A stretch of 64,000 bases of DNA, taken from the NCBI GenBank assembly GCA_030141605.1, contig JAQGDQ010000169.1:186001-250000 (forward strand), read 5' to 3'. A program made the position numbers and the translations under genes. This document shows positions 27,163 through 63,931 of the stretch, one piece after another; within the stretch, counting starts at the first letter, position 1, and every line of letters starts with the position of its first letter. The notes under the pieces are model-generated. The model made no database searches, was not told the origin of the DNA, and saw only the letters and a program-made list of their open reading frames with translations. This stretch comes from Tubiluchus corallicola (lineage: Eukaryota; Priapulida; Priapulimorpha; Priapulimorphida; Tubiluchidae).

Positions 27163-27819
27163 TTAACTAATACTTTTCGACATTTTCTTTTTTTTGTGTT
27201 TTTTCATACTATCATGTGTGTCATCGAACGCAGCAGTTTCACTGACATTTAAACGTTCCAGCTCTTTCTTTTTCTTCTTTGATGAACTGATGTCATCATT
27301 TTGGCTCATGTCTAATGTAGACATTGCAGACTGGCTGACATCCAAGGATTTATCGTTTTTCTTTTTCTTCTTTTTAGCTTTCACCTGATCATTAGTTTCA
27401 CTCTGATTCAGAGAGACATTCTCGGCAACTTGGCTAACCTCTAAGGACTCATCGTGTTTCTTTCTCTTCTTTTTAGGTTTTGATTCATCAGCAATTTCAC
27501 TTTGAATCAGAGACACATTCTGGGCAGCTTCACTACCATCCAATGATATATCATGCTTCTTTTTCTTCTTTTTGGAAGATTTCGTCTGACCTCCAGTCAG
27601 GCTCTGATTCAAAACTGTACTGCCAGTGTTATCATTCATATGTTCATCCTGAGTATCATTTAGTTGACTCTCATCCATAGTTGAGTGTTCAACCTTATGC
27701 TTCTTGTGTTTCTTTTTCTCTACATCTGCAGTTATATCAGAAGCATCTTCTCTTTCAGAAGCTTTTCGTTTCTTTTCTTTCTTCTTTTCCTTCTTCTTCT
27801 TTCTTTGTTCTTTCTGAAC
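27163..27819 (-). repeat. Lys-rich tandem-repeat tail in the last NOP56 exon
   Basis: The last exon encodes about 218 residues dominated by poly-Lys clusters. Near the C-terminus a unit of about 30 residues recurs four times: a run of Lys, a Ser-Leu-(Asp/Glu/Asn)-x-Ser segment, then a Ser/Gln/Asp-rich spacer (for example [32 protein letters not shown]). NOP56 tails in other eukaryotes are also KKE/KKX-rich. The regular phospho-site-like spacing between Lys blocks is notable here. The opposite strand shows pseudo-ORFs rich in Phe and Ser that are shadows. Confidence 0.8.
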
Positions 27820-30800
27820 CTGAAACATTAGATAACAAGGTCATTCCATTTATGGACTAGTGATGCACGAAATAAATAAAATAATTTTGTTCTAGAATAA
27901 GTACTGTAAAGAAAGCAGACATTTTCCAAACCTTTTATTTAGGATAACTTAGACTGCAAAATAAGTACCACATTTCTCATTTCTTGATATTGTCTTTGTA
28001 CTGTGTGATTACAATACAAAAACAACTAAGCATTTTTTATTGCAAAAATAACATGTGCACAATCAGTTACTTTTAAAAACTATTTTAAGCATAAAATAAA
28101 AAAATGTATATATAAGTATTTGGTATGAAGTCATACTGCTTCAGTAGCTTCTTTCATAACATCCAGGTTTTTCCGAGGAACTTCCCCACTTTCATAAAAT
28201 TTCAGCCTATCTTCCACTTGCTGTTTCAACATGTCACCATATATATGTGTCTGCGTCTCTGAAAATGTACAAAGAACTTGAAATATGCACTCCTTGCTGT
28301 CTCATCATCAGTCAGCCAAATGAGACAAGGAACTAACTTGCAACTTATAACACATTTAGAGCAGGTTTTTCTTGCCTAACTCCTAGTGAAACAGAGAGCC
28401 AGCAAACTTCTAATAACAGGGCATAAATGGTATCAAACATTTGCTTTGCTTTTAAACTGGGAAAACCTGAAGAAAGAATACAAACAAGCTGCTGGCAGAG
28501 AGTTTCATAGAACTCATGTTTGAGAGAAGATATGACTGCTAGGATGAGTGATTGTTTTTACACAATTTGGCACACTGCAGCCAGACTCCAGCATTCAATG
28601 ACAGAATCTACTCAGTTTGTGGCGAAACAGGAATTTGAATCAAGGCTGTCACCAAGAAGGGCCAGAGGTATCTGTTAAAAACATTTGTGTGTGAATACAT
28701 TCTGCCATTATGAGCGGATAACTGGAATTAAGTATGACAAATGAAGCTGCTCAGACCATGTCGAAGCAGTTCACTTGTCCATTAACTGATCAGCCTATAG
28801 ATGTCAAGAGATACAGCAAATAGGGTTTACGATTAATGTATCTAGTTTCCAGATAGACAAGTTTTTGTGTGGATCAACATGCATTTTTGTTGCACAAAAG
28901 ACGTGAATAAATACTACTGATTCTCTGAGACTTCACATATATTTATTTATGGATTTATTTATTTATATAATACGCTACTTTCTCGAAAACTGCTCAACTG
29001 TTTACTAAACAAACTCTCTCGATTTCCCTTGGTCTCACAAGGGATTATTTTTCAATTCGGTATGTCTGTGAGGAACCATGGGCAAAACAACCTCCAAAAA
29101 TTGGCTTTTTCCTGTCTCTGCAAAACATGTAAAACAGAGATCTGAAAAACAGGATAAATGGAGTGGAGTGCTATACAAGTATACATTATTAGAAAGAGCA
29201 TTCCGCAGAAAGTGTAACAGGCAATTTGGTTTCCCAATGCCCACTGCGATGAGCATTTTTCTAAACACATCCACCGAATTTTTCTGAAACTTTAACCAGG
29301 CACCGTGTAGAAAATTCATTGCGGAGAATCTTCACGGGAGTCTTGGAGAATAATCTATAATGCACAAGAACGAAATGAAGCCTACAAGGCGGATATAATG
29401 TAACGATAAAAACAATGATTTTTTTTTCAGACTAGCACAAGTCTCTTAACAAGTGCCACCGTTCAGGAACTATATATCACAAAAGAGTAAAGTTATAGTG
29501 TTCAAACTCAGTTATTTCTAAGATTACATCAGTATTTCATGCAGAAAATCTCTGCATAAAACCGTCGAGCGAGTTTCTTTTCTAAGTTACCACTGCTAGC
29601 TGTGATTCATTGTGTCATCTACTGAAAACTGAGTGTGCTTGACTGCGTAGCAAAACTCGACCTTTGGTGCCTCTGCAGGTGGAAAACACGATTGGTTTTT
29701 ATCCGTTTAAGCTTAGCGTGGGTTATTTTTTTAAAACTTTGTTTGTTTTTGCTTGGTTCACATTAAACTCTCATTACTTTTTCTGAATCTACCTCTACAA
29801 ACCCACATTAGGCCCGTAAATAAAATCACGGGGTGGTAAAATCCCTCGTAATAAGAAAGTTCTTGTAATATTAGAGCTCACTGTAAGCAAGGTGTAAATA
29901 AAATACATAAATAATATATATATAAGGCATAAATACATATATTAGTTAAGTCTAAGATTTGGCAGGACTTTAAACTTTCCTTGTAATAACCAGAGGCTCA
30001 TTATAACAGGCCCCGTTGTAAGTAAGTGGCTTATACTGTATTGCATAATCTAACGTATTTTAACATTAAACTATACCTGAGAAACAGTCAATCCTAGAAG
30101 CAACTGAACATTTGTTGGCTAAATAACGGGAAATGCGACCCTTGTTTTTAGCTCCTGCTCGACCAATAAATGTGGAATGGAAAATAAGACCATATTTGGG
30201 GGTATTACCTCGTGTCTTCAAAGCTCTACAAAAAAAATAATTCAGTTAATCTATAATAGTCTATCATTATAATTTATCATATAATCTAAATATTTAATCT
30301 ATAATATAAAGATTTTATATATATCTTTATCTATTTAACGTGGATTGACATAATAATTTATTTGATATTTTAATACGTGCAAATGAAACATTTACAAGCA
30401 AAAATAAAATATTACAAAAAAAACATATCACTAATGATTTAAAGACAAATGTGGCAAACAGAATTATACACATCGAAAATACGTGTATATAAATTAAACA
30501 TGTCAGGTTAAATACCAATTAATATAATGCTCACTGGAAAGCATAGTTAAAGTGACTTTCTAAATGCATCAGTGTTTGCAAAGCCCCTGACTTTCACTCA
30601 ATAGCTTATTTGCAGCAGCATGGAAAGAGTAATTATCATGAGTAACAAGATAAAACAGATGATTAGCAAGGGGTATGATTAACTCTTGAGCGGATAGTAA
30701 CTTTGGAAAGTTTGAATAATAACTCATAGCCATGCCAGGCGAGCAGTTAGCTTAATGTTGTGGTTAGCTATTTACAAAAAAATCAAATAATCTGAGGTTC

Positions 30801-33800
30801 AGAACACGACTGATTTTTTTCAATCTGTAAAAACTCACCGAAATAGTGCTTTCTCAGCACCCAGAATTTGGACTGTAGATGCAGGATACTTTGCCAAATT
30901 AGTTAAACTACCAGCACGAGATATTAATCTTGCACCAACCTACAAAATTCATTTTTATATTTAGGGAAACAGCTCACTATTAAATTGCTTGGAATATGAA
31001 CTATGTTCAAGTATAGAAGAATCAAACAAAAAACCAAAATTACCTCTGAACACTATATAATATTATAAAGACTTTCTAAAGAGAAACTTCTACATTGTAA
31101 AAACACATTCTGTATTCTGCAATCCTGCAAGCACACAATGCAGAAAGGAGGAAATCAGTAGAAGCTTCCTAGCAACCTACTGCTGAATTTCTTTTCAGTA
31201 AGCTTCTTTTTAAAAATAGTCTGTCTAATAGCAATGCCTTAAGGAGCGTTTAAATTTTACAAGATAATGGAAAAGTATATTATAACAGCACCCATTAACA
31301 AAAATTAAACACTACCAGACAATAAAAAAAGTTAAAAAATTGTTCTGTCACAGTTTAGAGCATAAGTTGCTGACAAAAAATTCAACAAATTTAAAATGAC
31401 ATACTGATTCACCAATCAGGTGTGAAAGGTTAGGTGCTACGCTGTTCATGCGACTAATGAGATAATTGTGCAGTTCCTTTCGATACTCTGCAAGTGAGAT
31501 AACTCTTGTGGCAAACCTCTCTATGTTGATAAGGTCCAGTGGAGATATATCCATACCTGAAAATATATCTGCAAAATGTAATGAAGCCATGCCTTTTATA
31601 GGAAATGATGTATAATTGATTTCAGAATGAATATTGTGAATCACCACAGTAAGAGTCAAACTCTCCTAGTTGAACTAAAAGTTAAAAGTTTACTGAATAA
31701 ACAGGTGTGACTTTGACCCAACAAGTCTTCAGAATGACATTCATTAATTGTGAAGGGATCTTATTCAAAGCTTGAAACTCATTAAGATGGAGGTGGGCCT
31801 GCTTGGCTCATCAGAAATGTTGAAGCATAGTAGAAAGGTTTATAAACATTCCACCTCAACAGCATTTCTCAGCAGCCGGAAGCAAATCTGAAACATACCC
31901 ATAGAAGATCTACTGGCATCCAGGATCGCTTGAGCTTTACTGCTGTCCATCACTATTTCTTCCAAATTTTCCATATGGTCTTCTGAAAGTTCCTTACGGT
32001 TCTTGATAAATCTTACTACCTTGGCATACAAGTAGTTGTCACTAACGATCTTGATCAGCTCAGGAAAATGATAAGAATACCATTCTCTAAAAAAATGCAT
32101 ACTCCAGAATGTAGTAGAAAAATGAAATGAAATGTAGATGCACTGTATCATTTAGGCTGTTTAGGCAGGAGATTAAAATTTTTTTATTTATTTTTATAAG
32201 CAAAACATATATGAGAGTACTGAAATCTCAGACGGTGTTTGACCAGTTATAACTCGGTAAACCTATAGGACGCCAAACTCTGTGACAACTTTTAAATTTT
32301 ACAAGGCATGACGTTACACATAATGATATAAAACTGTAATAAAATTGACAGATAAAAGTGTCATTTGCAGTTCAGCTTATGCACAACTATATACATAATA
32401 AGTAGCTCCTGCTGCTGAGTGTTGGACCTTGTAGTGCCAAACTGTAAAAAATAAACTGTATGGCAAAATAAATTAAGATGGTCAGCGGTCATTAGACTGA
32501 AAATGATGCAAGACGGTTGCCCATTCACACCACAACTTTCACATATTATGCTTGACGTAGGAAGATCCACATAGAAATGTAGAAAACAGCCACCATAATA
32601 AAGCTGATGTTTATTAACACCTGAAACTGATGTTATGTAATGCGAGGCTCAACATAACAGTTGTAAGTAATGCTGGCATCACTTTTGCTTTAGAATGCCA
32701 AGTGTGGTTCTGTTTTTATTTAGCATCCCATAAACGGCAAGTTGTTTACATCATTAATTTCCAAATTCTCTTGTGAATAAAACGATTCTTGTATAGCATT
32801 CTCACATGTTTTTAGCAAAACACACAAAAAAGTAAATATGACAAATAATTGGATTTAAAACAGAACAGGTGAGGGCTGCTTGATTCAAGGAAAATTATTA
32901 AGCTAATCGAGTTATAATTTTAACAGGTCAATTTACCGTATTCTCATTGCAAATGTATTTATATCTTTGTCAAGCTGGTCTAGCAGACTGATAGCTTGTA
33001 TTATCATATTGTCCACCCGGTGTACATTAAACTTGACTTTACTTCTTGAGTAGCTGTGACCAAGACCCAGTTGAGCTTTAGACGAGGTTTGCTCTGTTAG
33101 TCCCTTCACAAGAGTACCAAAATGCAACCGAATTCCTGCAAAAGCAGCAAATACATGAATTATAGAATTTATTTTTACTGGCTGGTAAATTTATACTAAG
33201 TGTATATTAAGCAGTTGAAGAGATATATATTCTACACAGGTACTATGGAAAAGTGATGCAAAGCTTACGACTTTCAAAGTTACTGCCTGTATGAGGAGAA
33301 TCTCCCATCTCGAAAAGCTAATCCGACTGACCTGTATGATGAGATTCTAATGTCACGCTTAATATGCAAATTAACTGATGCTTACGACAGTAGTAGTAAC
33401 TCTTGTGCAATTGAAGAATAAGCTTTTGAAAAAAAAAAGGATGGTGGTGTCCTCTGTTGTCTAAAAAGGCAATATACAAGCTACAAAAAAATCTAGTGCA
33501 AACCTCGCAAAAAATACTGCCATTTGCTGAATGCTGGCGTCTTCCTATGCTGTGATGCTGCTTTCTGTGTAGCCTTTTTTGTTTTTTAACGATTTTTGTC
33601 TATTCAAGTTGCTCAGAAAAGTTACAGTGTAAAATAAATTAGAAACCACAATGCCAGATTCGGCATCGAGTCATCAGGCGATGGTAAGTGAAGCCAATCC
33701 ATACATGCAATTAGATATGGGTGGTTCAACTTCGTATGGTTGATATTTTATGTACATGCAGGATAAAGATTCTAGCTATAGGCCTGTCTATGCCTTCATT

Positions 33801-36103
33801 TCTACACTAGAACGGCTATTGCTTATTCCCGTGTTTGAGGCATGAACTGCTGCACTTACGTGTTTAAAAAGTAGTTGTTTGAGACAGCGGCAGCAGCAGT
33901 GATGGTGGTGGAAGGCACACCAGGTATGATGGCAGCAACCACAGTAGTGACAGTCTATGTGGTAGAAGTGGATGTGATGTAGTTGCAGCTATACTAGTGA
34001 TAACATTGCAGTGACAATAGCAATAGCGACTTTTCATTTTCTTAAAATAATCCCATGTGTCAGCAAGAATATGAATTGCACGACAGTGAAGAGGTTAAAC
34101 TATAACATGACAGCACCTCTTATTATTAAGGCGGTTCATTCCAACAAACTGTCATGCTTCCCACAGAACATTCACAAGCATACCGGTTACCACAATTTAA
34201 GCATTAATGACTAACAGTTAGTAACAGCCCTCATAGGACTTTCTTAAGAAGATGTTGCTCAGGTAATGACTATCAATGAAATGCACATCACAGATGAAAC
34301 TAGATCAGAATAACCGGCATGAGAGTCAAACATACAATTCATAAACTACAATGAACCAAAAATCTAACCTACCTAAGAAGCCCAAGAAGTTTCTCATGAG
34401 ATAACAATGTGATTGTTTGCAGTTAACTTCAATTACTATATACACAATCACAGTAAATGCATGAATCAGCAACACTGAAAAACTACTATACCTCTGAGGA
34501 TTTCAGGCACAACTCCAGTGTGTAGACAGGTGATTCCAAGCTCTTCACTTATTGCTGCTGTAAGTTTGGCATCGGACATACCAAGAGGAGCACTCTTTTT
34601 ACTGCCTGTCTTCGGGACATTTGTCTCAAGAAACACCCGCAAATCTTCGTGCAGCACCCCTAGTATTTGGTAAAAATGACAGTAGATTAAATCTTTACTA
34701 AAGTAAATGAGATTCAGTACAACTGATCAAAAGCAAACGAACTCAAGGCCCCTAAATAACATTTTTCAAATTTTTTTTAAATGTTTATGTAGCAAAACAT
34801 CTAACATAAAGCTGCAATTTGTGTAAATTAAAATATCTTACTACACAAAAAATGCTTCTTCTGCACGAAAAAATTTCTTTGATGTTAGGACTACAACAAA
34901 TGTGAGACATATTATAAGCAAAAAAAAGAAAGAAAAGCAAAAATTTTTGAATAAAGAATTGTTCATTACTTTCCTTGAAAGATAAAAATGTGCAATTTAG
35001 GAAAGAATGCCAGACATAAAAAATAACAACTACCTAACAGCTGTAGGTATTTATGATCGAAACACTGGCTGTTGATGGCCTTACCTTCAGATATACTGTT
35101 CATATTTTCCAAAGCATTTGTTCCACTCTTAAATGGAGAAAATGCTACCAATTTTACAAAAGAATTGAATTTTGATAAATCATCTACAGTTGCTTCTACA
35201 GAGGCTAGATTCATGCCAATTTCTTCCATTTCCTTTACGCGAAACAATGCATAACCTGCTGCATGTTCAAATAATGTGTACAGACGAGCCTAAAAATAAC
35301 AAAGTCACAGTTATAATGGCTTATGAGTACCCATCATACAATGTCACATATAGGTCACGGTGAATATTTTTATAAGCGCATTTTAGTTAAAAGAGCTTTT
35401 CACAACTTACAAAAAAATGTTAACTAGTTCCCTTTATTCTTTCACACAAATATATTTGTGAAGTTTCCAAGAATGAGACATGAGAATCGTTAGCAGGGAG
35501 CCAAATCTGTTGTTAATCTACTGAATAACATAAGAAAGTTATCATCAGCAATCACTTTAGCAGCTATGTGAATAATATGTATTATCCGGTTTAATGCAAC
35601 AGTAGTAAATCATATTGTGTACTTGAATACATTTCAATGGATGTCTGTGTGGGAAACGCTTTAGTGTAGTACTCTTGGTACTCACTACACAAAAAGATTC
35701 TCTTGTTTTTTTTTGGGTCGACAGAAAATTAATAAACAATTTTTTAATATTTACATACTAAGCTAATACTTTATAAAGAAGACTGAATATGATCTCTAAT
35801 GGATGATTTCAATGTTTTGGTACACCTAACAAACAATATTCTGTGACTATGAAATATGAAATACTTTAGAATATGTTTAAATGTGGAGTTTGTTGAGAAA
35901 GCATTAAAACATAAATGAATCAAGTATTTATCCAGCATGATCTTTAAACAAAATTTAACATGTTTTATAACAACTTTGCTGCATCACATTTCATACTAGT
36001 AGCCTGAGCGATATTACCATTAAATACTAAAATCCACTGTGTTCTAATGGCATATTAGCATTCAATGAAATTCTACATAAAACATACTGTAGTTACTTAC
36101 CAT
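27163..36103 (-). CDS. Nucleolar protein 56 (box C/D snoRNP core protein)
   Basis: NOP56 pairs with NOP58 in box C/D snoRNPs and directs 2'-O-methylation and early pre-rRNA processing in the nucleolus. Exons, 5' to 3' on the minus strand: 36103-36101 (ATG only), 35289-35085, 34659-34492, 33135-32937, 32086-31899, 31556-31405, 30939-30839, 30225-30077, 28258-28137, 27819-27163 (stop TAA). Phase is kept throughout, giving about 647 residues against 594 in human. Domains in order: N-terminal NOP5NT segment ([15 protein letters not shown]), coiled coil with the [12 protein letters not shown] block, NOSIC and Nop domains ([53 protein letters not shown]), then a Lys-rich tail. The Nop-domain blocks are very close to the animal consensus and match NOP56 better than NOP58 or PRPF31. 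Confidence 0.96.
28259..30076 (-). other. NOP56 intron 8 (longest NOP56 intron)
   Basis: No coding exon fits here. Short ORFs near 29035-29319 on both strands have no recognised similarity. The part around 29820-30040 contains GCTCATTATAACAGGCC and ends TTATACTG, which on the minus strand reads CAGTATAAGCC followed by TTATAA-type blocks. That resembles the ends of pogo/Tigger-type DNA transposons, but I could not find the matching second end. Confidence 0.4.
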
Positions 36104-41639: not shown

Positions 41640-41751
41640 CTGCACGCCCTTAACTCTTTCCTTTATGCTTAATTTATCCTTTTTAATCAATAACTAAAAA
41701 ATAATAATTAGTCAATTTTTTTACAGGTGTAAATGAGGAGATAAATAAAAA

Positions 41752-44800: not shown

Positions 44801-47800
44801 TTTTCATACTTCCATACTTATATATTTCTAAGGATTTTGTTTACTGGTTTTGATTTTGCAAGGCCTTCACGCACCCATACATGGCTTATACACATATACA
44901 TACAATCATATTTTTTAAGTGCAGATTTTCTATTTTCTTCAATCACCAAATGCTATGTATGTGGACTTAACCACTAAAGTACAATTATTGCAAAGATTAC
45001 AGTTGCCTTATTTAGTTACAATGTAAGCATTTGATCAAATGTCCCATCTTGACGTAGCCAATCCCCTTCAGTTCTTCCCTGCCCATTCTCCATCTTCATT
45101 GTCGACCACGTTTTTTGATCGAACATCTCATTAATGTAGCTGTTACAATTTGGGTGGCTTATTCGTCCTCTGGCATTTAGGCTTGTGTGTGATGCTAATC
45201 CACATGTACTAACATTATTATGTAAATTCGTTTATATGTATTAGACTATATATAGGAAAATCAAGATAAACAATGCAGATAACAAGATAACAATACAGAA
45301 TGCACGTTTTTTGATCAAACACCTCATTAATATAGATGTAGCAATTTGGGTAGCTTATTTGTCCTCTGGCATTTAGGCTTGTGTGGGATGCTAATCCACA
45401 TGTACTAACATTATTATGTAAATTCGTTGATATGTATTAGACTATATATAAGAAAATCAAGATAAACAATGCAGATAACAAGATAACAATACAGAATGCA
45501 GGTCTGAAGCGCGTTAGTAAACTAATTTTTTTTCATATAATATGATTACATCGTATTAAAAATTATAAAATTATTAAAAGTGGAAAAACGTCTTTGAAGT
45601 CAGTACAGACTTATATGACCTCTATGTCACTTGTCTATCAATTATCATAGTTTGAAGGCAGTAAATGCTGGTAAAAGTTGACATACTGATTAAAAGAGTA
45701 AAATAATATTAATATTTTTTGTGATAAATTACAGCCATTCCTTCCTACACCAAAATATTCATTTAGTAAGTAGTAGTATATTTCTGTATTTGCAGTTTTT
45801 GCAGTTTGGCTTCCTTATATAGTTTACAATGCAAGTTTATAGATATATTTTATTTCATATAGGAACATTGTGGCTACCTTAACTGCTATGTCAGGATGAT
45901 GTGAATATTAAAAATACCTAATTTGTTTTTTTTTACTTTTACCTGCATCTACTGTCCTGATTACTTATTCATTTTTTTGTAATTTTCTCATTTTTTTCAA
46001 AATCCTATTTAGGTGACAGAGAGAGATTGGCATTTAACATTCCTACCTGCTTTCAAGGCGTGTGTTAGAGCTGGTACTTACAGTGTTATGTGCAGTTATA
46101 ACAGGTACTTACTTGGATTTTCATTGTGAAAATGAGCTCTTCTACATTTTTCAATTTTTGTTCAGTATATTTTGCCAATCGATGCTGTTATGACAGACTG
46201 CTTTTCTTAAAGTTAAATTTCCCTCTTTTCATTTAATATGTAGTAGATTTTTTTTTTGAAAAGTGATTGTGTTTTTTTCAAATTCTTTGCAACATTCCTG
46301 TTTTGTTTCTTTAGAATAAATGGTATTCCAGCCTGTGCCAATAAACACCTGCTAACAGACATTCTTCGTACTGATTTTGGTTTTACTGGGTATGTTGTAA
46401 GTGATGAAGGAGCAGTAGAGAATATTATTACTTGGCATCACTGGCTGAATAATTCCATTGATACTGCTGCAGCATGCATTAATGCTGGTACATTATTACA
46501 TTCACTTTTTAGGAAATGGGCAGCCATTTTCTTCATTGCCATATGCACTTTTCTGCAAATCTGTCTACACAGTTGAGCTTCATTTACTTATTTTTTATCT
46601 TGCAATCTGACATATCATGTATGGCTATAAAGCTTTTTTCTCTGAAAATGTGTATTTTTTGGGAAAAGCTACTACAATTTTTGTAATATACTTAATTGCA
46701 GATGTTTTTTTTATTAAAATCCATAAAAGATTAAAGAAATCTTTAAGACTCTTAAGAAGTTTTGTGATTAGTGTGGTATAAAGTTTCACTTTTAGAAATA
46801 TTTCAAAAGCTCATATTGCGAAATGTGCATCTGCTTTCATTCAGATGTGCTGTGTAGGACAAAAATTTAATAAAACTAAGGCTTTTTTTAACTTTTGCCT
46901 ACTGTCACATTTTCCAGGAGTGTTTTAATATTGCTAGAGGTAGTGCAGGCTACTTGCTTTGAAGACTGCAATGTCTGGGCTTCCAAAATGATATGAATAT
47001 TGTTAAATTATTGTAACACTAATTTATCATAACTGTGTAATGTGCAGATATTGCATCTCTTTTATTTTGATGTTTTTCTTTCATAATTTCTGTTATTTGT
47101 TAACCGTAGAGAACATTGGTATGTTTTTGCCTGCGCTTTGGTAATGCAATTGGCTGTTTATGATTAGCATTTACTGGAAAAACAAAAACAGAAAAACAAT
47201 ATATAAAATATTTTAGATATAATATTGTAAATATTTAATGTAGAAGGCGGCATGTACCTAGTAAAGGTATTTCTGCACCTTTAATAATTAGGTGAGGGTT
47301 AAGGGAACTAATATTTATTGCTTTAGTTCTATTTGGACCCAATATAATAAGAAATTTTGTACTGTTAAAGGTTTAAATCTGGAATTGTCTGGAAATAAAA
47401 AAGATAGTGTTTTTACCTACTTAACAAAAGCAGTGAAGATGGGCAAAGTCTCGACGAAAACTATTCAAGAGCGAGTGAAGCCATTGTTTTATACAAGAAT
47501 GAGGTTGGGTATGCATTCACGTCTATCATTACACTGCTTTTATGTTGGTATAATCTAAAAAAGTCTGAGGATGGTAGCAGTTTTTTAAAAAAGTGACAAA
47601 TAGTATTAAAAGATTATTTTTTATTGTATTATGGCTAGTGCTTTAGTAAGTTTACATTATAAATTTTATGTATTGTCGATATACATGAAATTCAAATGTT
47701 GAGATTATGGTAAAATGGTTTTTGATACCAGTTTTTAGATTAGATTTCGAATTGAAATGCCATAAATTTACCTACAGAATTTAGGAAAACAAATACTTAT

Positions 47801-50800
47801 GCAAGATTCTGCTTCATACTCATATTAATTATAAAAATCACTAAGTTGCATTATTCTGTAGGTGAATTTGATCCTCCATCTATGAATCCATATAAGAGTC
47901 TGAATTTGAGTGTTATCCAGAGTCCAGAACATCAAGCATTATCAGTGGAGGCTGCACTAAGTAGTTTTGTTTTGCTCAAAAATTTTGCCTCTTTCTTGCC
48001 ATTGAAAACTAAGTTTAAACGACTAGCTGTAAGTACTGCCACTATTAAGTTACCTTTTAGATGATTATGTAAACTCATTTTTCCCTTTAAAGTATATATA
48101 AAAAACCACTTATAATTACAAAATTTTTTTGACCCTATACCATATTCATGCATTGTATCACATATTGCATTTGCAGTATATTATATTCATCATTGTTTAT
48201 TTAACATTCAGTAATACCTGTATTGCTACTCATTGTGAACATTTTGCCTGGAAAATGAAAAATGGTCATATGGTCAGATTCATAATATACGGGTAATTCA
48301 AACTGCAAGGTCAATGATCACCATATCAATGATGGCATGACACATTTCTGAAATTAACATTTTCAAAATACATTACATATGTGTTTATTTTCTGGTGCTA
48401 GTATAATTTTCATTTGTTATGTTTTGAAGGTTATTGGCCCAATGGCAGATAATCCGCTTCAATTATTTGGTGATTATGCACCTCAGTATGATCCTCAGCA
48501 CACAACCACACCTCTCAAGGGGCTAAGTAGCTTGGCTAGTTCAGTAAAATATGCTGCTGGTTGTAACGATACACCATGTTTGAGCTACAACAAAAGTGCA
48601 ATTTATGAAGCAATTGCTCAAGCTGATTTGATCATAGTCTGCCTAGGACTTGGTAAGAATTTCTTTTACTATCTGATGTGGATTAGTGGGCTAAATTAAT
48701 GATCAGAACCAGTAGATGGAGTAGTTTCTAGATTTCCTGTCTGTTACTGGACTTGTAGTATCATAACAGTCATCAACAAACTGCAGGAATACCTTTATCA
48801 CTCTAGCCATTATACATTATATAACTGGATTTTTAGACTTTACCGGATTGTTTAAAGGAACACAATTAATGTTATTATTTTACTGTTGTACTGTAGTTCA
48901 TGATCAAACCACATTATCTCTTCTCACTTGATTTAGAATGTGCAGACATAAAATTATAGATCACATTGGTAAAAAAATTGATTTTAAAATGTTTTATTAA
49001 GTGCGCAAACCTAACCCTGCAAACATGTGTTAACAGAAATTTGCTAGAACTTAATGTCGTTTGTTTATTAAAATTGCAACTAAAGAATATGTATACCAGT
49101 TAACAATTTTACAAGCTTGTCTTTTGAAATTCTGTTGACATTTTGTAGCTACATATATGGTGCTGCATTTTTTGCAGGTCAAATGCTAGAAAGGGAAAAC
49201 CATGACAGAAAGAATTTAGATCTTCCAGGATATCAACTTCGTTTATTACAGGATGCCGTCACTTTAGGTGAGCAGGTCAGCTTTTTATCGGCCATACTTT
49301 CCTATTTTATGGTGTTCATATTTTTTTGATTAAACATTTATAATAACCACAAGATGGGTCTATTGGTTTTCTGTTGGGCACCTGTTTCGAATGTACTCAA
49401 ATTTGAAGTTGATTTCTTATTGTGTGCCTTGATTTGTGGTGCTTAGTTACCTAGCAATGCATTTCTAAGTATTGAAGTGCTTTTTGAAATATATGTGTTT
49501 ATAATAATAGAAAAGTTCCACTGTAAGAAATTTAAAGTAACATGTTTCAATAAAACACCTTGTGGCATATTCACATGAAAATTGAAAACTGTAAATCATT
49601 GAACTAATTTTTCAATTAGTGCTGTGTATTTTGTGATTTTTGTGACATCTCCAATTTTGTTTTTTGCTCTTAGTGTTCTAGTTATTCCATTGCTTACAAA
49701 AAATGTAAAAATTTGTCTAATGAATTTTTGTGAGATTTTTTTATTTTCTTGCAGGTATTGTTTTTTTCATTGTGACCCTTATTTTTGATTGTGTTTAGAC
49801 TCTGTCACATCTGACCTGATTCTTGTGTCACGTCCAAGTTCATTTCTACGTTACTTCTTTATATCGGTCACTTTGATTTTTAGCAGTCAACCATTGTTTG
49901 TCACATGCTTACAAGGTTGTTTTCATTTATGGTAGGAAAAGCACCAGTTATCCTCACATTATTTAATGCTGGACCACTTGATATTAGCTGGGCAAAACAG
50001 TCTAACAGAGTAGTAGCAATTATTGAGTGTTTCTATCCAGCACAAGCTACCGGGGAGGCCTTACGAAGGCTTCTTTTGAATGAAGGCCGTAGTGCAAATC
50101 CTGCTGCCAGACTACCAGCAACGTGGCCATCATCGATGGGACAGGTATTATTTCTCATCAGCTAAGGATAATGACACCATTATGGCAACCTTATCTTAAG
50201 TAGAGCAGCATATTGCTAAAGTTTGAAATCTGTCTTTTAGTCCCAAACACTTGTTGTGGTAGTCTATTCACCAGGCAAATGATGAAGTGGGTTAAAGTTA
50301 TTTAATAAATCACCTGAATCAACTGAACGGCCCTGTTAAAGAAGTTGGAGAACTGGCCCTAAACCAGACTAAGGTCAGCTTTACTATGTACAATGAGAAT
50401 TTTAATAATTGAGGCTATGTAAAATGAATTTTGCCCTTAAAGCTAATCAACATTTTCTTGTTACCATGGTTTAAATAGTTTCTTGTGAATTCCCAAATTA
50501 GTTTACTTGCATTTTAATTTATTACAGTGGACTTTGTTTCACCTTTTGATGTATCTAGGTTCCACCTATGGTGGATTACACAATGGATGGTAGAACATAC
50601 CGTTATTTTAAAGGAACACCTCTTTATTCATTTGGCTATGGTTTATCATATACCACATTCCATTATGATCTGCTTCAAGTAACACCACCTGTTGTACGAT
50701 CTGGCGAAGATGTACATGTTCATGTAAAAGTGTCAAACACTGGAAAATATGACGGAGAAGAGGTATAAATAATAATACCTCCTATAATAATTATTCTTAT

Positions 50801-52044
50801 AGTAAATGAAGTTTGTAGAACTATCTTTGCAGTCTATTTAAATGTTGACTAGCCCATAACTTATTTCTAACAGATTTTCTAATTCTGTATGATTAAAATT
50901 CTCAATTGAATTTCTTGACAACTTCATTATTGATGATATTTGGACTAAATTTTACATTACTTTTGGTCAAGAGAGTTTTAATTAAATTGACTTGCATTTT
51001 TTAAACATTGTGTAACACAGTTGTGCATAGGTCTATTTTAAAGTTTAGGAGTTCATGTTCATATTTCTTAGTTTTCAATGCACTCATATACAATATAAAG
51101 CATAATATTGTCGTATTAGTAGCAGCAGCATGTTTTGTGACTAACCAGTGGTCATTTTAATGATTCATTGTTTATCACATTTTTTATGTTCTCCTGTCTC
51201 GTTATTTGCATTTTAGAGCACTTGTTAAAATTTCAGTGAGTCAGTGATGAATGTAGTTAGTCTATATATTACTTAGTTGTTTTTGCCCTGTAGGTTGTTC
51301 AGGTCTACTTGTCGTGGCTGAATGCCACAGAAAAAATGCCAAATGTTCAGCTTGTTGCATTCCAGAGAGTTTTTATGAAGGCTCATTCTAGTCTTCATGA
51401 ACCTCTGCAATTAATAATTCAGCCGGAGCAGATGGCTGTATATATAGATGGAAAAGGGTTTTCTATACTGCCAGGTATGTTTCATCTTGTTACAGTAAAA
51501 TTGGGTGAATTATAGCAGATTATTTTCATGCTACAGGTATTGTTATATATCTTTATGTACAGTTTGTAACTTGCAACTTTTTGGAAATTTTATTTCTCAA
51601 AAGATGTAAAACAGATATTCTTTTTACTTTTTTGTGTTGCGAAGTTATGAAGTTAAACACAATATTTTTACACTTACTTTCGATATATGATGTTGGGAGT
51701 TTTTGTATTAGATTCTGGACTGGCAGTCCAAGGTTCCAAGTTCGAGTTTCAGTGCTTGTTGTGTTTTTTGAATTTTGCTGATATCACATCAACTTTGTGG
51801 CTGCCAATATAAATGTTAGTGCTTAACAAGAAATGGGAAATAAACTGTTGGGGTAAACAGGCTGATGACTATTGAGTAAAATTGTTAATGACATATACAG
51901 ATATATTTTTTAGATGCAAGATATAAGAAAGTGCATGTTTTTCTATTTCTAGGGGATTTTGTTGTTTATGTTGGAGGACAGCAACCATATCAGAAAACTG
52001 TTGTTCCATCAAATATTCTAAAGGGAGCATTTTCTATCAAATGA
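41815..52044 (+). CDS. GH3 beta-xylosidase-like glycoside hydrolase
   Basis: Exons: 41815-42170, 43985-44144, 44593-44763, 46013-46104, 46315-46487, 47371-47508, 47862-48028, 48430-48652, 49178-49267, 49936-50144, 50559-50762, 51294-51474, 51953-52044 (TGA). All junctions are GT-AG and in phase, giving 751 residues, a normal length for GH3 xylosidases. The start at 41815 gives a classic signal peptide (about residues 1-22, with FVILFLLLL core), so the enzyme should be secreted or lysosomal. The N-terminal barrel has YQWNTECLRG (89-98, equivalent to the Y-x-W-W-N-E-x-L-H-G motif), GEDPHLTG, the catalytic-pocket CKHF (207-210) and SDEGAV with the predicted nucleophile Asp290. The second domain has DLPGYQ and FNAGPLD. 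The C-terminus is a fibronectin-III-like domain (VKVSNTGKYDGEEVVQVYLS). Substrate is unproven; beta-xyloside is the best guess and beta-glucoside possible. Confidence 0.93.
42570..43354. mobile_element. TIR element (mariner-like MITE) in GH3 intron 1
   Basis: The left end reads CAGTGGAGTACAGTCATTTCC. The right end, complemented, reads AGCGGTATAGGTCCGTTTCC, so the ends are imperfect inverted repeats. A TA dinucleotide flanks each side (42568-42569 and 43355-43356), as expected for Tc1/mariner-type insertion. Subterminal regions on both sides are full of TTTCT-GGAAA motifs in opposed orientation, and the core holds three 120-bp tandem repeats. No transposase ORF is present, so the element is non-autonomous. 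Confidence 0.6.
42810..43168. repeat. Three tandem copies of a 119-120 bp unit
   Basis: Units start at 42810, 42929 and 43049 with AGTATTGATTAATAGGGATA and end near GAATCACGTTGATCTTTGCA. Copies differ by scattered substitutions and short indels. A partial fourth piece (ACGTTGATCTTTG) follows near 43170. They form the core of the surrounding inverted-repeat element. Confidence 0.9.
43892..43932. other. 12-bp perfect hairpin before GH3 exon 2
   Basis: GAGGATGATGGT (43892-43903) and ACCATCATCCTC (43921-43932) are exact inverted repeats around a 17-base loop. It lies about 50 bases upstream of the acceptor of the exon starting at 43985. Confidence 0.85.
45107..45500. repeat. Two-copy tandem duplication, period 196 bp, in GH3 intron 3
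   Basis: Copy 1 (45107-45302) and copy 2 (45303-45500) both begin CACGTTTTTTGATC and end ACAATACAGAATGCA, and are highly similar over their whole length. No ORF is kept. It lies inside the intron between the exons ending 44763 and starting 46013. Confidence 0.92.
51705..51765 (+). repeat. Possible tRNA-derived SINE remnant
   Basis: The segment CTGGACTGGCAGTCCAAGG followed by TTCGAGTTTC resembles a tRNA anticodon arm and T arm (internal promoter B box). A clear A box and acceptor stem are missing, so it is not a working tRNA gene. A related stretch occurs at 52944-52980. Confidence 0.3.
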
Positions 52045-53274: not shown

Positions 53275-56200
53275 ATGTTTTCAAACAGTGAGTTTTCTGT
53301 TTTTGCGTATTGCAAAATAAACAAAGACAGAGAAGCCATTATACTTGATTTTTGTCACAACTTTTTTCATAAATTAGACATTAACATAAGAATGAGCAGC
53401 AAAACAAGTATACGAAAAAGCAAAATGGATTCTATAGCGAAGAATAAAAGTATAGGCATCACGAGCGAACAGACAAATAAATCGTGGTAAGTTGCATTTT
53501 TGACGATCAGCAAACACTAATTATTACACAAGTATACCTTTTTGCCTCCCGACTGATCACTAAATTCTAGGCGTTTGTAACAACCGAGACCTAGGTGCAA
53601 ACTATATGCAAGGAATTTTGCCTGAAACCTGTCCACTCTCAATGGCATCCTTGGAAAAAAAACAAAACCGACGTGTTAGGTTAGCTGAAGAGGCTGACCT
53701 TTGTACGATGTCAACTCTGGAACAACAGAGAGAGACCATTGACCTCATCAACTGTTATTAGATAATTAATGGAGCATCCATCCTCAAGGATTTTTTCATG
53801 CCCCCTAGATCCCTCCGTGGATACTCAACGCGGTCATATTCAATTTATATTACCCTAAGTCAAAATCCTGTGCAGTAGCCCCTAACTGTTTTAAGTATTT
53901 TGTCAAAGCTTACTTATGTCTATTTGTTAATTATTTTCGTTTTTTTCACTTAGTTAGTACTTTGCTGTGTGTTTGTTTGCTGAGTAAAAACTGAAGACTA
54001 AAATCATGTAATCTGACATAGTTAGAATATTTGTAAAAATATATTCTATTATAACAGTATAGTCAGTTTACAACTGCAGACTAGTCAACTTTAGATGGTA
54101 ATAATATTACAGCGTACTTCAACAGGGAACCAAAGAGTACATGGAGATTAACAGTAAAATAATAGCAAATCTTACATCACAGGTAGGAAGTAACTAAGGT
54201 GATGGAGGGGAGTGCTAGAACAATTGAAGCCATACTGCTGTCACATGGTTTTTGTTTGTTGTGTAGGCCTTTTATTTTGCCAATTGAGGCTTAAATTTAA
54301 ACTAGATATTAGTGTCACTGTTATCATAATTATTGTACTGATAATGCTATCAGTACACTGTCGGTATTTATTTATTTTACTATACGACTTTGCATCATTG
54401 GCACAAATAATTTTTAATTCCTGCAGTTGTAAGTGATGACTGTGACCAAGAGGCACAAGAAAAAAATTAAGTGAAACATTCTAACTTCAAGTATACTTAA
54501 GTCTCATATATACATATATATATATATATATAAGTATTAATGATATACCTATGTGTGCAGTAGGTGCCGATTAATAGACTCACGGTTAATAGACTCAATT
54601 GGGTAATTAACTCAAAAATGCCTGGATTGGGCCGCTTCTATTCAAATATACATAAAAACTGTCTGTAATTGACTCAAATAACTCCGATTAATTGACTCAG
54701 TATTTTTTCTTCACCTTCTTACAATAAGATGTTTGTATGTGCCCAAAGAACCTTTCCTACTTTTATGTCATCTTTACTTCCCTTTGGTGCACTATTATGT
54801 AGAAACAATCATAAACATTTAAACACTTGTGAAGCGCTCTTCTTTTGATGCTTTTGCTGCAAATCACCCTTTCAGGCTTAGTCAGTCAACAGTCAAAGAT
54901 GCAGGTAGAGTAATCAGCCGGTATTCCTTGTGACTTACAAGACTAAGCATTATACAGCAAATAAGAGCAATGTAAGTGAGCAGACGATTCAGAACTGTTT
55001 TAGTCCCGCACAACAACAAATTTTTAACGTTTTTATAATTACGAGAACTTTGTTGGCCAAGATCTTCGCTAGAAAATGAAGCAGCCAACTTTTTGTAATT
55101 TTTGCAAATAAACTTATATATATTAGTATTTTGAAATATTTTTTCTAATTTTTAACTGCATGAAAGAATTTAGGGATTAGTTCGTTTCTAAAATTCATTG
55201 AAAACTGTTTCAGTGCATAGTAGGCTGATGAGTCATACTTCTATGCCTTTAATACTACACCCATCGATTAATAGGTTCAGTCGGTTAATTGGATCAAAAC
55301 ACGTTGGTCCCAAAGTGAGTCTATTAAGTTGTGCCTACTGTATATAAGTATTAATAACTGTAATGTGATTTAACATGAAAACATTAACTAGCTTCTGATT
55401 TTCTAACATTTTGTGCAGTTAAAGCAATTGAAATTTAATGTGGGATATAATTTTACTTGTCGAACCAGTTATAACTTTTTGGCATTATATTTTGTTGTAT
55501 ATATTCATAAAGTTTCATATATTATGTTTTATAGAGTTTAAATGATGTGCAAATCACTCCTACCTGCAAACAGAGGCTCATTATACTGTTTGTACATTAA
55601 TAAACATTTATCATCTTCATCGTCATTTCACTGCAACAGCAAGGTTAATTGTGAAGTATTAGTGATACTTGTGATGTTTTTTCCATTTAGAAGTCTGAGC
55701 AAGTATGGCAAGACTGAAAAATATTGTACCTGTTATTTTTGCATGGCAGTGCTCTGACTCTGTTAGCAGTTTGGTGTTGGTCATCATGAGTTTTTTTGTA
55801 GTTGTTGAACGTATATGAATGATGATCAGATTTTTAACAGTTTTTTGCAAACTTCCTATAAATGAACTTTAATGCATTTTCAGGACACAAAGGTTTATTA
55901 GACTTGACGCTGGGCCTCAGCAGTGCTCCTGATGTCACCAATGAAACCATTGTACCGTCAAGCCACTTTGATAGAAACGAGTTTGGAAAATGTAGTTTTG
56001 TTATTGATGAAAATCTTATAAAAAGTTTGGTAAGTTTAGTACTGTAGTAGTAGGGCTATGGGTTGAATGCCGGTAGTTAGTGGGTCATTTTTGTGGTAGA
56101 GTCTTTTGACAAAATTTTTTGTCTGTCAGTCTTTTTGAATCCAGCGAAAAAAGAAAAAAGATGTTTGAAGTAAAGTCTGTAAGAGAAGAAACTTTTACCA

Positions 56201-58818
56201 AAATCAATCATTTGTTTGTTGGAATTTTCAGTGGGAACAGCCTGAGAATTTCAATGGCTTTATTACAACATAGCGAGTCACTTGAAATAAACGTCCTATT
56301 TTCTAACATGATGAACTGTGTGTTCAAAACAGAATTTTTTGGGTGGTGCCACTGTATTACAGCCTTGGTTTTTTTTTGTGTACTAACAGAAAGTGACCTC
56401 ACCCATTGTCAACCAACTCCACCCAGATTTGTCTTTATTGGCCATGCATTTCTGATGTGTCATATGTAACTTTGTTAGTTAGTAGTGATGGGCTGAGCCA
56501 ATCAGTGATCAATAGGGATGAGCATGAAACTTTCGAAGTGAATTTGAACGAGTTTTTTGTTCAGATTCAATTTGTACCTAAAATTATAGATTCGAATAAT
56601 TCAGCCCTTCAACCCCATACATTCTTTATCATCATGCAATCAGCACAGTTTATCTGTAGTTTCTGTGAACAATTTTTAAACAAATTATTATTGTTTTTAC
56701 TGCAAAACCGAATCAAGTAATATGCGGTTCTTTGTGAGGCTGCTATTTATTAGTAATTCGAAAATCTTTAAAACCGAATTTGAATCAGATTCGAAAACAA
56801 GCTGAAATTCTGCTTGATTCAAATTTACTTTATGATAGAGAATGTGCCTCTAGCGATTGCTGATGGGTGAACTAACAGTGGCGTTCGGTTGTGATCGGTG
56901 ATCAGTGGAGAATTTCTAATTGGCTCACATTAAATTATTGATTGGTTCGGTAAACTATTGAACTCAGGACGTAAAAATTGCTAAAATTTATGAGAAAATG
57001 AAGAATAAAGTATTTAAAATGTACGCCAAGTTTTGAAATGTTTAGCATATCGTTACGATAAAATTATTTACATGCAGCAACTTTACTTCATTCACTTACC
57101 TTTTCGATGAGGTACCACGTATAAAGTGCATCCACCAAAGACACACAATATTCAAATAACGTAACATAGGAATTTTTAATTATATAGTCCAGCAAAGCTT
57201 CAAAGTTGCAATGATACATTTTGTTTTGATTAATAAAATTGGATAAATGATTACAAGAAAGTATTGATGTTTCATCATTGAAGTCTTGTGGGTAGTATAT
57301 TTTGACCTGTAAAATAATTGATCAGACAACACATTTTAAAAATAATTTTTATAGCAACATTGTTTATGTAGTCTGTTTTATCCGACTTGCAGTCGATTGG
57401 TATTGGTTAATGGCAAAATCGATTTGCTCTTGATTAGCTCGTTGTACCCGAAAATGAGGATCGGCCCGTCATTGTAATAGTTAGTATTGTTGTTGATTAG
57501 TGTTTTAGAACTTGGACACAATATGCTGTCATGAATTTGCAATACTTTAGGGTACTGATGCAAAAAGCAATAGTTATATTGCAGAGCAGATACACTTTCA
57601 ACTACGTTTGACGAATTCGCTAAGTGTGCATTGGGATACTCTTGTGTGTGGGAAAATTATGTATGTCATGATACCTGCTGGAGTTCTGCCTGATGGCTCA
57701 AAAGAAAGGTACTACAAAGTACAAAACTCCTTGAGCACGTCATATTTGTTTAATTTAGCATTTAGACAGTGCAATGAACTGTTTGTTTCAAATGCAGCAA
57801 AGAATATTTTTCTTTAACTAACCTGCAATGTTTGAATAGATGGTTGATACAATATCTTCAGTTGACATGTATTTTAGTATTTATTTCTATCTTAGTTGTG
57901 GTTCAGTCATTATATTTTCTGTTTTTATTGCTATACTAGCTTTGTGAGTTTGCTGGAATATGCTGAAGAAGTTATGGAATGCTCACAAGTTATCATTTGT
58001 CTGGATAAGAACAGGAAAGACAGGGGTAAATAAACATCATTTAAAAATGCCTAGTATTTTTCTATAGTAATTTACTATTCAACTTCTGTTGGTGGTATAA
58101 ATAAAATGTACAGGTGAATTTCCTTAGTTTCATTTTCATGGCACAAATATATTGCATACAATCTTTTACATGTATAAATTGTATCATATTATTTCTAGAG
58201 TACCAGCTATTTTTAAATAATTCTTGATAACCATGCATGTAGAATCTCCGAGCAAGTAGTATGTCCTTCTCTTACGAGTTAAGAATAAGACTATTAGTCC
58301 TGCACTTTGAAGTCTTTGCAGTTATATACAGTGAAACTGGTGGAAATTGTAATGTAATGGTGTATACATTATACTAGCAGTGCTCAGTGAGTTGTAACCC
58401 AAAGTTTGTCCTTTTTTTGTTAAAACAAACCTGGCAAAAAGCTGAAAATTTCAAAATTTTCTAAGACGCTTGTAAAAAGTGACAAACTCGATTGAAATTG
58501 TGCATCTTATTGATTATGCTTAGGTCTATATTCTCTGTACAATGTTAATACTGGTTTGTAATGCGAATTAATAAAATACGGAATTGGAGTGCTACATTCG
58601 AATATAAATTCCAAGTAGAACATTCCAGCGAATCATCATGAATATGATACATATTCATATTAAAATTTAAAGCAACTAAAGTGGATTTATTTTTAGCTGC
58701 TCTGGTGAGAATGTTCATGTTTTTGGGATTCACAAGCTTGCCTCCTTCAGCAGTTACTCCACAGAATAGTGCGCCTCAGTCTGCTGATTTGCTATACCTA
58801 TTGTATAGTATCGACTAG
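53275..58818 (+). CDS. Ornithine decarboxylase antizyme, +1 programmed frameshift
   Basis: Antizyme binds ornithine decarboxylase, sends it to the proteasome without ubiquitin, and blocks polyamine uptake. Exons: 53275-53486, 55884-56029, 57587-57708, 57940-58025, 58697-58818 (stop TAG). Frame 1 runs through exon 1 and into exon 2, ending at TGA 55930-55932 after QQCS. The main frame continues +1 from GAT at 55931 and gives 142 residues, making about 228 in all, as in human OAZ1. Identifying blocks are VHWDTLVCGK, YVMIPAGVLPDGSKE, SLLEYAEEVMECSQVIICLDKNRKDR and AALVRMFMFLGF, matching the conserved ODC-binding core in order. Every junction is in phase on both sides of the shift. The first ATG is uncertain: 53194, 53275 and 53392 are all in frame; 53275 best fits family length. 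The C-terminal 25 residues are divergent. Confidence 0.93.
53630..53830 (+). mobile_element. Decayed LINE reverse transcriptase fragment in antizyme intron 1
   Basis: The stretch encodes STLEQQRETIDLINCY (53711-53758), then a stop, then IINGAS and, after more damage, FFMPPRSLRGYSTRSYS. This order matches the C-terminal region of CR1-like/pol-like LINE proteins (the TLE-RR-R-D-I block followed by KIING). Stops and frame changes show it is dead. Confidence 0.55.
54508..54532. repeat. (TA)n microsatellite
   Basis: A run of alternating TA with few interruptions, just left of the pogo-like element. Confidence 0.85.
54557..55340. mobile_element. Pogo/Tigger-like TIR element in antizyme intron 1
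   Basis: The left end CAGTAGGTGCCGATTAATAGACTCAC matches the complement of the right end, CAGTAGGCACAACTTAATAGACTCAC. Variants of a GATTAATAGACTCA block recur at least five times near the left end (54567-54700) and again near the right end (about 55264-55325), like the repeated binding sites of pogo-family ends. The internal 600 bases hold no transposase I can recognise, so it is probably non-autonomous. A 15-base direct repeat, TATATAAGTATTAAT, occurs just outside both ends (about 54527-54541 and 55341-55355). Confidence 0.7.
55924..55934 (+). promoter_or_regulatory. +1 ribosomal frameshift site of antizyme
   Basis: TGC-TCC-TGA-TG. The ribosome reads TCC in the zero frame at the P site with TGA in the A site, then moves to GAT in the +1 frame. 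In the antizyme family, rising polyamines raise the efficiency of this shift, closing a feedback loop. The site and the residues just before it (GPQQCS) follow the usual animal pattern. Confidence 0.93.
55939..55952 (+). promoter_or_regulatory. Short hairpin just 3' of the frameshift site
   Basis: CAATG (55939-55943) and CATTG (55948-55952) pair perfectly around a four-base AAAC loop, seven bases after the TGA. Vertebrate antizymes carry a stimulatory pseudoknot at this place. Whether this small stem is part of a larger stimulator is not shown. Confidence 0.45.
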
Positions 58819-60190
58819 TTGCTATTGCTGTGATTTGTAGGAACTTGTGCATCATTTTAATAATTGCTATGTAAACTGTTACGTTATATATTTTGAGTCT
58901 TTGTTAAATAAGTTATTGAATGAAAAGTCAAAGTGTATGATACTGTGTATATAATTTTCTGCACACCGAGTTCTTTTAACAGTTGCATCTAAATTTAAGT
59001 ACTTTGTTTAGAAACTTAAATATATCGAATATGGATTTGTTAACTTTTTTGTCAAGTCAGCTCTGTCGCTGACCTTTATTTTAATTCTGAACATTTCGAA
59101 TTTCCTTTTTTCCTTTGCTATTAATTAGAGCTTGTGATTAAGATTACCAAATGAATTAAACTACTGTGAAACTGGATTGGCATTTGTAATGCTTTTCTTG
59201 TTTAGTTTGCTGTAGATATATTTTATAATGCTTTATGAGTTGTAACTTTGAATGTGTAATAAGTGTGGAATACTTGAAAACTACATTTTGTAAATTTATG
59301 AAGGAATGATATCTCTTATCTTAAATAATTATCTTTTATTGTGAATGCTACTTGTGTGTTAATACTTGTTTATCTATATAGCAAAATTGTTAGACTCATT
59401 TGGAAAAACTTTGTTCCTATTTAACATTTCCCATGCACTAACTGTGCTGATATTTTCATATTTAGCATTTGGAAGATAATATTTAGTTGTAACCTAAAGG
59501 TATGTTGCAGATTTTGATGATTTATTAAGAAACTGCTATTCTTAAACATGATTGTATAAACTGATTTTTTTATGTACATGTATATGTTTATTTGTGGCTA
59601 CTGACTGATTTTTAAGCTTTTATTTAAGGTTTCTAAATTGTTTAATTTGCATTCCATTTTCAGTTGCATGATTTATTAAAAGTTCCCTATTTCTGTCTAT
59701 TAAGACAAGATCATTTTTATGCTTTAGGTGCTAAATTCTTTTGTGTTACAGCGTATGATCTGTTTCACTTTTTTTATAACTTGCTTAGGAATTGAAGTGA
59801 AAATTGTTAGTTCCTCTTCTCTTTATTATGTTTTGGCTAACTATAATTTTGATTACAATACAAATATGTCATTCAAGTTCAATAATAAAAATTTACAATT
59901 TTTGATTACCTAATAACATGTAAGTTGTATTATATTTTAGTGTAACTGCTTTTTTAAAACAGTTTGACATTTTACAGGCCTGGGTCCCATGTGGTAGCAT
60001 CACTAGCTCATCCAAAGTGACACTGAAGTCTCAATTTCACTGAAATGAATGCAGTTAAATAAACTTGGCAAATTCTTTAAAATTCTCGCTATTACTGGTA
60101 AAGTTCAAGTTAAAAAAAATTAGTAATAGATGACATTGACCTAAAGTGTAATTCCTAAGTAACCAAGCATGGCAAACTCGATTACATTAA
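58819..60190. other. Antizyme 3'UTR and intergenic
   Basis: AT-rich DNA without recognisable ORFs. An AATAAA near 59883 could be a distal poly(A) signal for antizyme, but I cannot place the transcript end. Confidence 0.4.
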
Positions 60191-63030: not shown

Positions 63031-63040
63031 TTAGGGACAT

Positions 63041-63931
63041 ATGATGGATATGGAAGAACAGTTGCTTTACTTTAAGTGTACGGCTTGCTCGGAGTGTTTC
63101 GTGTCAGAGGATATCTTTTTTGCTCATACCCGTACCTGGCATTGTAAGATTCTTATCTGTGTGGGACAAGATACATCTTCTGCACACATTTCTAATTCTG
63201 ATAAAAAAGACTATGATAACAGGACCAGACTTGAATTGGCTGATGACCCCAGTCAGATTGCTATAAAAGAAGATGTTTCTGGAGATATGCTTAATGATGA
63301 TAGCGACATTGAAATGATAGACTCTAATATTTATTTTAGACACTTGTCAGAGAAGAGTGATAATACTAATAAGGAGCTTGCATGTCTAAATTCTTTTTCT
63401 TCTAGTGGAAGATTTGAAAGTGACTGCTTAAACATAATGTTTGATTCTCTGGAACAGGACAACAAGGAAAGTGTCTTCTTGCAAACCAGTATGCCATCTT
63501 CCAGTAGCTCACTACCAAAAATTGACATTATGTTAATGCAGCAACAGCATCAAAGTTTAGTGCCACAGCCAGCTCCTAGTGAAGGACGGTTCCTTAAGCG
63601 AACCAAAAGTTATCAGAGTAAGAGCAACTTTAGGAAAAAGCAAAGTGGACAACTGCTTATGAAGAGGAAACAGCAGAAGGTTTGGAATGAAGTAACAACT
63701 GTTGGCAATACTGAACAAAGTGAAGAACTAATGAAGACTATAATGAGCAAGAAGCAGTATGCTTGTACTATGTGCTTTTATCATACAGAAGTGAAACAAA
63801 ACATGGAAAAACACATTAGAATACATACTGGTGAAAAACCATTTCATTGTTCATTGTGTAACAGGAGTTTTACTCAGAAAACAAGCTTGACCAGACACAA
63901 TCAAGCACTCCATACCTCAACCGATGGCTAG
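63041..63931 (+). CDS. C2H2 zinc-finger protein, 296 aa
   Basis: Probably a DNA-binding nuclear protein; the specific family is not recognised. The ATG at 63041 follows a CTTTAG acceptor-like site (63034/63035), and an in-frame TAG overlaps that site, so the coding region starts here and any upstream exon is untranslated. Fingers: an N-terminal degenerate one (about residues 12-34, CTAC then HTRTWH) and two C-terminal ones (about 241-263, CTMC then HIRIH; and 269-292, CSLC then HNQALH), the last two joined by a TGEKPF linker. Between them is a long acidic and Ser-rich stretch, then a basic segment (KRTKSYQSKSNFRKK). It ends four residues after the last finger (STDG then TAG). Codon use and intactness suggest a real gene; no frameshift is seen. 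Confidence 0.85.
   Translation: MMDMEEQLLYFKCTACSECFVSEDIFFAHTRTWHCKILICVGQDTSSAHISNSDKKDYDNRTRLELADDPSQIAIKEDVSGDMLNDDSDIEMIDSNIYFRHLSEKSDNTNKELACLNSFSSSGRFESDCLNIMFDSLEQDNKESVFLQTSMPSSSSSLPKIDIMLMQQQHQSLVPQPAPSEGRFLKRTKSYQSKSNFRKKQSGQLLMKRKQQKVWNEVTTVGNTEQSEELMKTIMSKKQYACTMCFYHTEVKQNMEKHIRIHTGEKPFHCSLCNRSFTQKTSLTRHNQALHTSTDG

Follow-up and report, generated by a model that had tools for sequence, protein, structure and literature searches.

The stretch of DNA analysed here, henceforth the window, comprises 64,000 nucleotides of contig JAQGDQ010000169.1 (positions 186,001 to 250,000) in the Tubiluchus corallicola assembly GCA_030141605.1. Its forward strand contains a gene of five exons, between positions 53275 and 58818, organized as two overlapping open reading frames: ORF1, with 86 codons counted from the ATG at 53275 (and fewer from the later ATGs), and ORF2, with 154 codons in the +1 phase (Table 1). 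The initial annotation had described a five-exon gene with two frames that each splice in phase, joined at an antizyme recoding site reading TGC-TCC-TGA-TG at 55924-55934; reading of the letters confirms the site, and the exon chain was recovered with four GT-AG introns. Upstream of this gene, the same strand carries exons of glycosyl hydrolase family 3 (PF00933, PF01915) at 46247-46573 and 49884-50162, in a gene that by eye may begin near 41749, and a Nup84/107 exon at 15985-16287. Nop56/58-like exons (Nop, NOP5NT) lie on the reverse strand at 31843-32151 and 34969-35289, and a lysine-rich ORF with no Pfam match on that strand (27166-27840) may be the tail of the Nop56/58-like gene. At the window end, the forward strand holds a C2H2 zinc-finger ORF (63035-63928) whose five Pfam matches all fall under the curated cut-offs.

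Table 1. Features of the window gene (window positions) and exons of the second gene (positions on contig C67).
Feature	Coordinates	Strand	Remarks
Exon 1, coding part (ORF1, zero frame)	53275..53486	+	Phase 2 end before gtaagt; start codon uncertain
Exon 2 (ORF1 end, shift site, ORF2 start)	55884..56029	+	Acceptor ttttcag, donor gtaagt
Shift cassette	55889..55935	+	Sole exonic blastn match to C67:2001-16000
+1 recoding site TGC TCC TGA T	55924..55933	+	T55930 inferred as the skipped base; identical at C67:8920-8929
Expected 3' stimulator region	55933..56013	+	Structure not above chance
Exon 3 (ORF2, ODC-binding core)	57551..57708	+	ORF chain, Pfam, product search
Exon 4 (ORF2, ODC-binding core)	57940..58025	+	ORF chain, Pfam, assembly profile search, product search
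Exon 5 (ORF2 end, TAG stop)	58697..58818	+	ORF chain, Pfam, product search
C67 antizyme exons	8874-9025, 9818-9969, 11065-11150, 12591-12709	+	Read from C67 sequence

Exon 1 is 212 nt long (remainder 2), and its zero frame runs on into exon 2 as ...LDAGPQQCS and ends at the TGA at 55930-55932. The +1 frame is open from the GAT at 55931 to the end of exon 2 and then through the three following exons, up to the TAG stop at 58816-58818. The spliced message contains many stops in the +1 frame of exon 1 and many in the zero frame soon after 55932, so that neither frame alone spans both parts. The five exons join into 724 nt, and omitting one base at the motif TGA yields a product of 240 residues that ends at the same TAG. 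The codon preceding the UGA is UCC (TCC TGA T, 55927-55933), which is described as the shift site in a substantial majority of antizymes (PMC5009743), and a shorter upstream ORF overlapped by a downstream ORF in the +1 phase is described for the family (PMC2375905). The start at 53275 is a choice among several in-frame ATGs rather than a result: the zero frame of exon 1 is open from 53188 and offers ATGs at 53194, 53275, 53392 and 53425, the last of which has the context aaaATGg and would leave an ORF1 of 36 codons, whereas for the in-phase ATG at 53179 a stop codon intervenes before the open frame. Several ATGs are likewise described for the abalone antizyme, with four in an ORF1 of 51 residues (PMC4551804).

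Absence of a match between the +1 product and the Pfam ODC_AZ profile had been named beforehand as the outcome that would speak against an antizyme; the product scores 71.7 bits (E 5.9e-20) against a cut-off of 24.2, and the match of the fusion covers positions 27-114 of the 114 in the profile (PF02100). A SCAPER_N match overlapping ODC_AZ reaches 18.2 bits, below the cut-off of 25 for that family, and ORF1 taken alone returned zero Pfam matches (E up to 1). All four sequences matched in the PDB (4zgy, 5bwa, 4zgz and 1zo0; E 1.4e-23 to 1.4e-21) carry the name antizyme, and we take these structures to be human and rodent. Over 89 residues, the core of the product gives a gap-free alignment with 4zgy_B (antizyme 1), with 42 identities (47%), and it may correspond to antizyme residues 95-176, which are reported as the minimal ODC-inhibiting peptide (PMC3170320). 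Taken together, the reading frames and the protein matches indicate with high confidence that the window gene encodes a conventional animal ODC antizyme, presumably made via a +1 shift at UCC UGA. As such, it is an added member of a known family, for which frameshifting itself is textbook knowledge.

The new element is that the same assembly carries a second antizyme gene, on contig C67, with an identical shift site and a matching gene structure. When the entire assembly (343.5 Mb, 2344 contigs) was searched with the ODC_AZ profile, two matches came out, both above the cut-off, corresponding to the window gene and to C67. A search of the assembly with the window product (E up to 10), which may miss weak matches, gave eight matches, of which five fall in the window gene, two on C67 and one, weak at 14.2 bits, on contig C1597. 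The C67 gene presents TGC TCC TGA TGT at 8920, exactly as in the window gene, and its product scores 69.0 bits against ODC_AZ and matches 4zgy_B with E 4.7e-22. Of 162 aligned residues, the two products have 73 in common, and identity to the 4zgy_B core amounts to 42 of 89 residues for either product. The positions of introns 3 and 4 coincide between the genes in both codon and phase. For intron 2 the phase agrees and the positions differ by no more than about four residues, in a stretch that aligns poorly. Intron 1 also agrees in phase, with the start of exon 2 in the C67 gene lying farther from the shift site by two codons. The first exon of the C67 gene was sought in C67:2001-8860 by requiring phase 2, one of a small set of donor words and an ATG 10 or more codons upstream. 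Two candidates with one common ATG came out, neither of them convincing, and exon 1 is left unassigned.

The assembly also contains bacterial contigs, as indicated by intronless decarboxylase genes with bacterial-looking neighbours on contigs C274, C2335 and C1597; for the gene on C2335, the best identity among the 80 records listed, mostly from Rhodospirillales, is 55%. A sponge host, considered in view of these bacterial contigs, was dropped: the assembly contains 98 matches of the cys-loop receptor domain, and sponges are not known to have such receptors. TTAGGG arrays, with 63 forward and 45 reverse overlapping matches, argue against an insect or a nematode, and the 47% core identity to human antizyme 1 suggests an invertebrate host. 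A search for COX1 gave no match. Intron 1 of the window gene holds a repeat of 173 nt (54558-54730) with the recurring text taatagactca, which matches the opposite strand of C67:8123-8293 at 73%. Despite the bacterial contigs, the presence of this repeat on both the window contig and C67 argues for a shared host of the two antizyme genes. A scan of IMG/VR viral contigs with a three-sequence alignment produced 48 pattern matches and 0 confirmed relatives.

The shift motif taken by itself carries little weight. The window holds two copies of the octamer TCCTGATG against 1.44 expected, and 45 of 100 shuffles contain at least two copies, a near-chance frequency that leaves the weight on the context, namely the protein match and the paralogue with the same site. 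That the octamer merely happens to lie between two unrelated open stretches, as its expected count would allow, is a reading to which we attach a negligible probability, refuted as it is by Pfam and PDB matches extending across the exon chain and by the second gene.

Splicing might instead bypass the TGA if the exon 1 donor were joined to an acceptor in exon 2 located past the stop. Four of the five AGs in that part of exon 2 (55962, 55974, 55995 and 56025) would, if used as acceptors, place ORF2 in frame with exon 1, and the one at 55974 is preceded by 12 pyrimidines in 20 positions, inside the range of the real acceptors (12, 12, 15 and 11 of 20). The other three have 10, 6 and 8 pyrimidines, against 11-15 in the four real acceptors, although the first of them falls just below the range. 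A bypass message would moreover lose the residues around the shift, which are kept in both copies, and the shift site is identical in two genes whose products otherwise agree in 73 of 162 residues. Other routes lose the ORF2 frame: skipping exon 2 altogether does so, as does splicing to exon 3 from either of the GTs that precede the TGA in exon 2. We regard removal of the stop by splicing as very improbable, and retain frameshifting at UCC UGA as the preferred reading.

Conservation around the site is apparent at the DNA level. Comparison by blastn (E 1e-3) of window positions 53400-59000 with C67:2001-16000 yields two matches, one of which is the intron 1 repeat. The other pairs 55889-55935 with C67:8885-8931 (83% over 47 nt) and constitutes the only exonic DNA similarity detected between both antizyme genes at that threshold. 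In a span reaching from ten codons before the site to two codons after it, and with Met and Trp excluded, 7 of the 10 residues that are identical in both products are encoded by identical codons, compared to 20 of 61 elsewhere (Fisher p 0.036). This difference lends modest support to a constraint acting on the RNA, of the kind that a 5' stimulator would impose. Among the residues upstream of the site, the G-P pair in LDAGPQQCS occupies the codon positions at which Table 2 of PMC5009743 has G-P for fly, fish, frog, bird and mammalian antizymes 1 and 2; DAGP in the window gene stands where that table has GPGP for human antizyme 1, and DAGPQQCS where mammalian antizyme 1 has GPGPRWCS. Metazoan antizyme genes with the UCC_UGA_U shift site, such as that of Haliotis diversicolor (PMC4551804), resemble the window gene in having a short ORF1 that ends in UCC UGA, an ORF2 in the +1 frame and an ODC_AZ core, and the abalone gene is reported to show the same TCCTGATGT around its site; here, two copies are found in one assembly, and the window copy lacks a detectable 3' structure.

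The 3' side of the site differs markedly between the two genes. On C67, a stem of 14 pairs is predicted to begin 4 nt past the UGA, and the 60-nt fold has an energy of -38.4 kcal/mol. Folding z-scores relative to shuffled sequences are -5.99, -4.91, -4.29 and -3.53 for 60, 70, 90 and 120 nt, with 0, 0, 0 and 1 of 300 shuffles as stable, and -3.51 for 81 nt (1 of 200 shuffles); the 40-nt fold, in which the stem is incomplete, has a z-score of +0.92, with 247 of 300 shuffles as stable. Synonymous codon shuffles are as stable in 1 of 1000 cases under uniform usage and in 2 of 1000 under the usage of the gene itself, and the segments around the stem are the most stable among 150 60-nt segments in the exons read. 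Eight possible pairs, one of them G-U, between the loop and a stretch located 12 nt past the stem could generate an H-type pseudoknot. A crude stacking-energy search assigns it -47.5, against a shuffle mean of -20.6, with 0 of 200 shuffles as good, while the standard fold contains a local hairpin in competition with its second stem. The predicted stem is hence the firm part of the structure, and the pseudoknot is perhaps best taken as a proposal. The six matches returned by Rfam for the C67 region at E up to 10 all lie far under their gathering scores.

The corresponding region of the window gene shows no structure above chance, with z-scores of -0.7, 0.67, 1.06, 0.45 and 1.14 for 40, 60, 70, 90 and 120 nt, and 0.26 for 81 nt. 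Synonymous shuffles were as stable or more so in 925 of 1000 and in 874 of 1000 cases, and Rfam gave zero matches for positions 55850-56060 at E up to 10. The pseudoknot search, which covered H-type designs within 85 nt whose first stem starts 2-10 nt past the UGA, other designs being possible, found 96 of 200 shuffles as good. According to PMC2375905, 3' stimulators such as pseudoknots are common in antizyme messages but not defining, and no single feature is universally conserved. Mammalian antizyme 1 has the same UCC UGA shift site as the window gene. It is reported to carry a 3' pseudoknot 3 nt from that site (PMC5009743), where none was found in the window gene.

The presence of a strong 3' structure in the C67 gene and of no detectable one in the window gene implies that both copies probably shift at different efficiencies, and we expect the C67 message to be the more efficient of the two. 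The absence of structure above chance in the window gene, and the greater AT-richness of its exons 2-5 (GC 0.405, versus 0.492 in C67), could also be read as signs of a decaying duplicate that has lost its stimulator and left the C67 gene doing the work, a scenario compatible with antizyme descent. Yet all five exons of the window gene are open and its four introns retain GT-AG boundaries, its core is as near to antizyme 1 as that of C67 (42 of 89 residues in each case), its Pfam score is slightly higher (71.7 versus 69.0 bits), and the argument assumes a loss, that is, an ancestor that had the stem. Decay of the window copy is thus unlikely in our judgement. As a tentative alternative, which we hold at somewhat less than even probability, the two genes may split antizyme control between them, sharing the shift site and the 5' context and having opposite 3' signals, with a very stable stem or pseudoknot in C67 and none in the window gene. 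If so, the pair would answer different polyamine ranges or tissues, as an independent parallel to vertebrate antizymes 1 and 2 versus 3, and would amount to a natural experiment on what a 3' stimulator does.

Copies with weak or no stimulators beside a better-equipped one, as proposed for the window gene, are described in PMC5009743 for mammalian antizyme 3 and for a zebrafish brain and retina antizyme. Antizyme 3 is said there to be devoid of all known stimulatory signals and to shift at a very low level; it lacks the 5' G-P codons that the window gene keeps, and the likeness is meant as an analogy. Fly, worm and 'lower eukaryotes' are described as having single antizymes (PMC5009743, PMC2375905), making a pair with unequal stimulators in this assembly mildly unexpected. 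A planarian study likewise describes one antizyme in each of two species (PMC5574924).

For the family, polyamines are reported to raise the share of ribosomes that shift, and the product to bind ODC and lower polyamine synthesis and uptake (PMC5009743). Under the corresponding model for the window gene, ribosomes translating ORF1 would arrive at UCC UGA, where a fraction would terminate. Others, holding tRNA-Ser in the P site, would move forward by one base to read GAU and continue into ORF2, which encodes the putative ODC-binding core. More polyamines would lead to more shifting, and a feedback loop would be completed as the ORF2 product switches off both ODC and the uptake of polyamines. 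We infer the occurrence of the shift, its polyamine dependence and the action on ODC from membership in the family. A candidate target is present in the same assembly, where an ODC-like gene with introns was read at C2326:7170-8600 (+). The ODC-like exons of C2326 appear twice in mirror orientation, at 7170-8600 (+) and 49839-51269 (-), with almost equal scores, as would result from either an inverted duplication or an assembly artefact.

Gene callers that ignore frameshifting will split or truncate both antizyme copies. The useful part of this locus is the matched pair, with the same host and shift site, a similar 5' context and opposite 3' structure: if both genes are expressed, swapping their 3' regions would gauge the share of 3' structure in shift efficiency and polyamine sensing.
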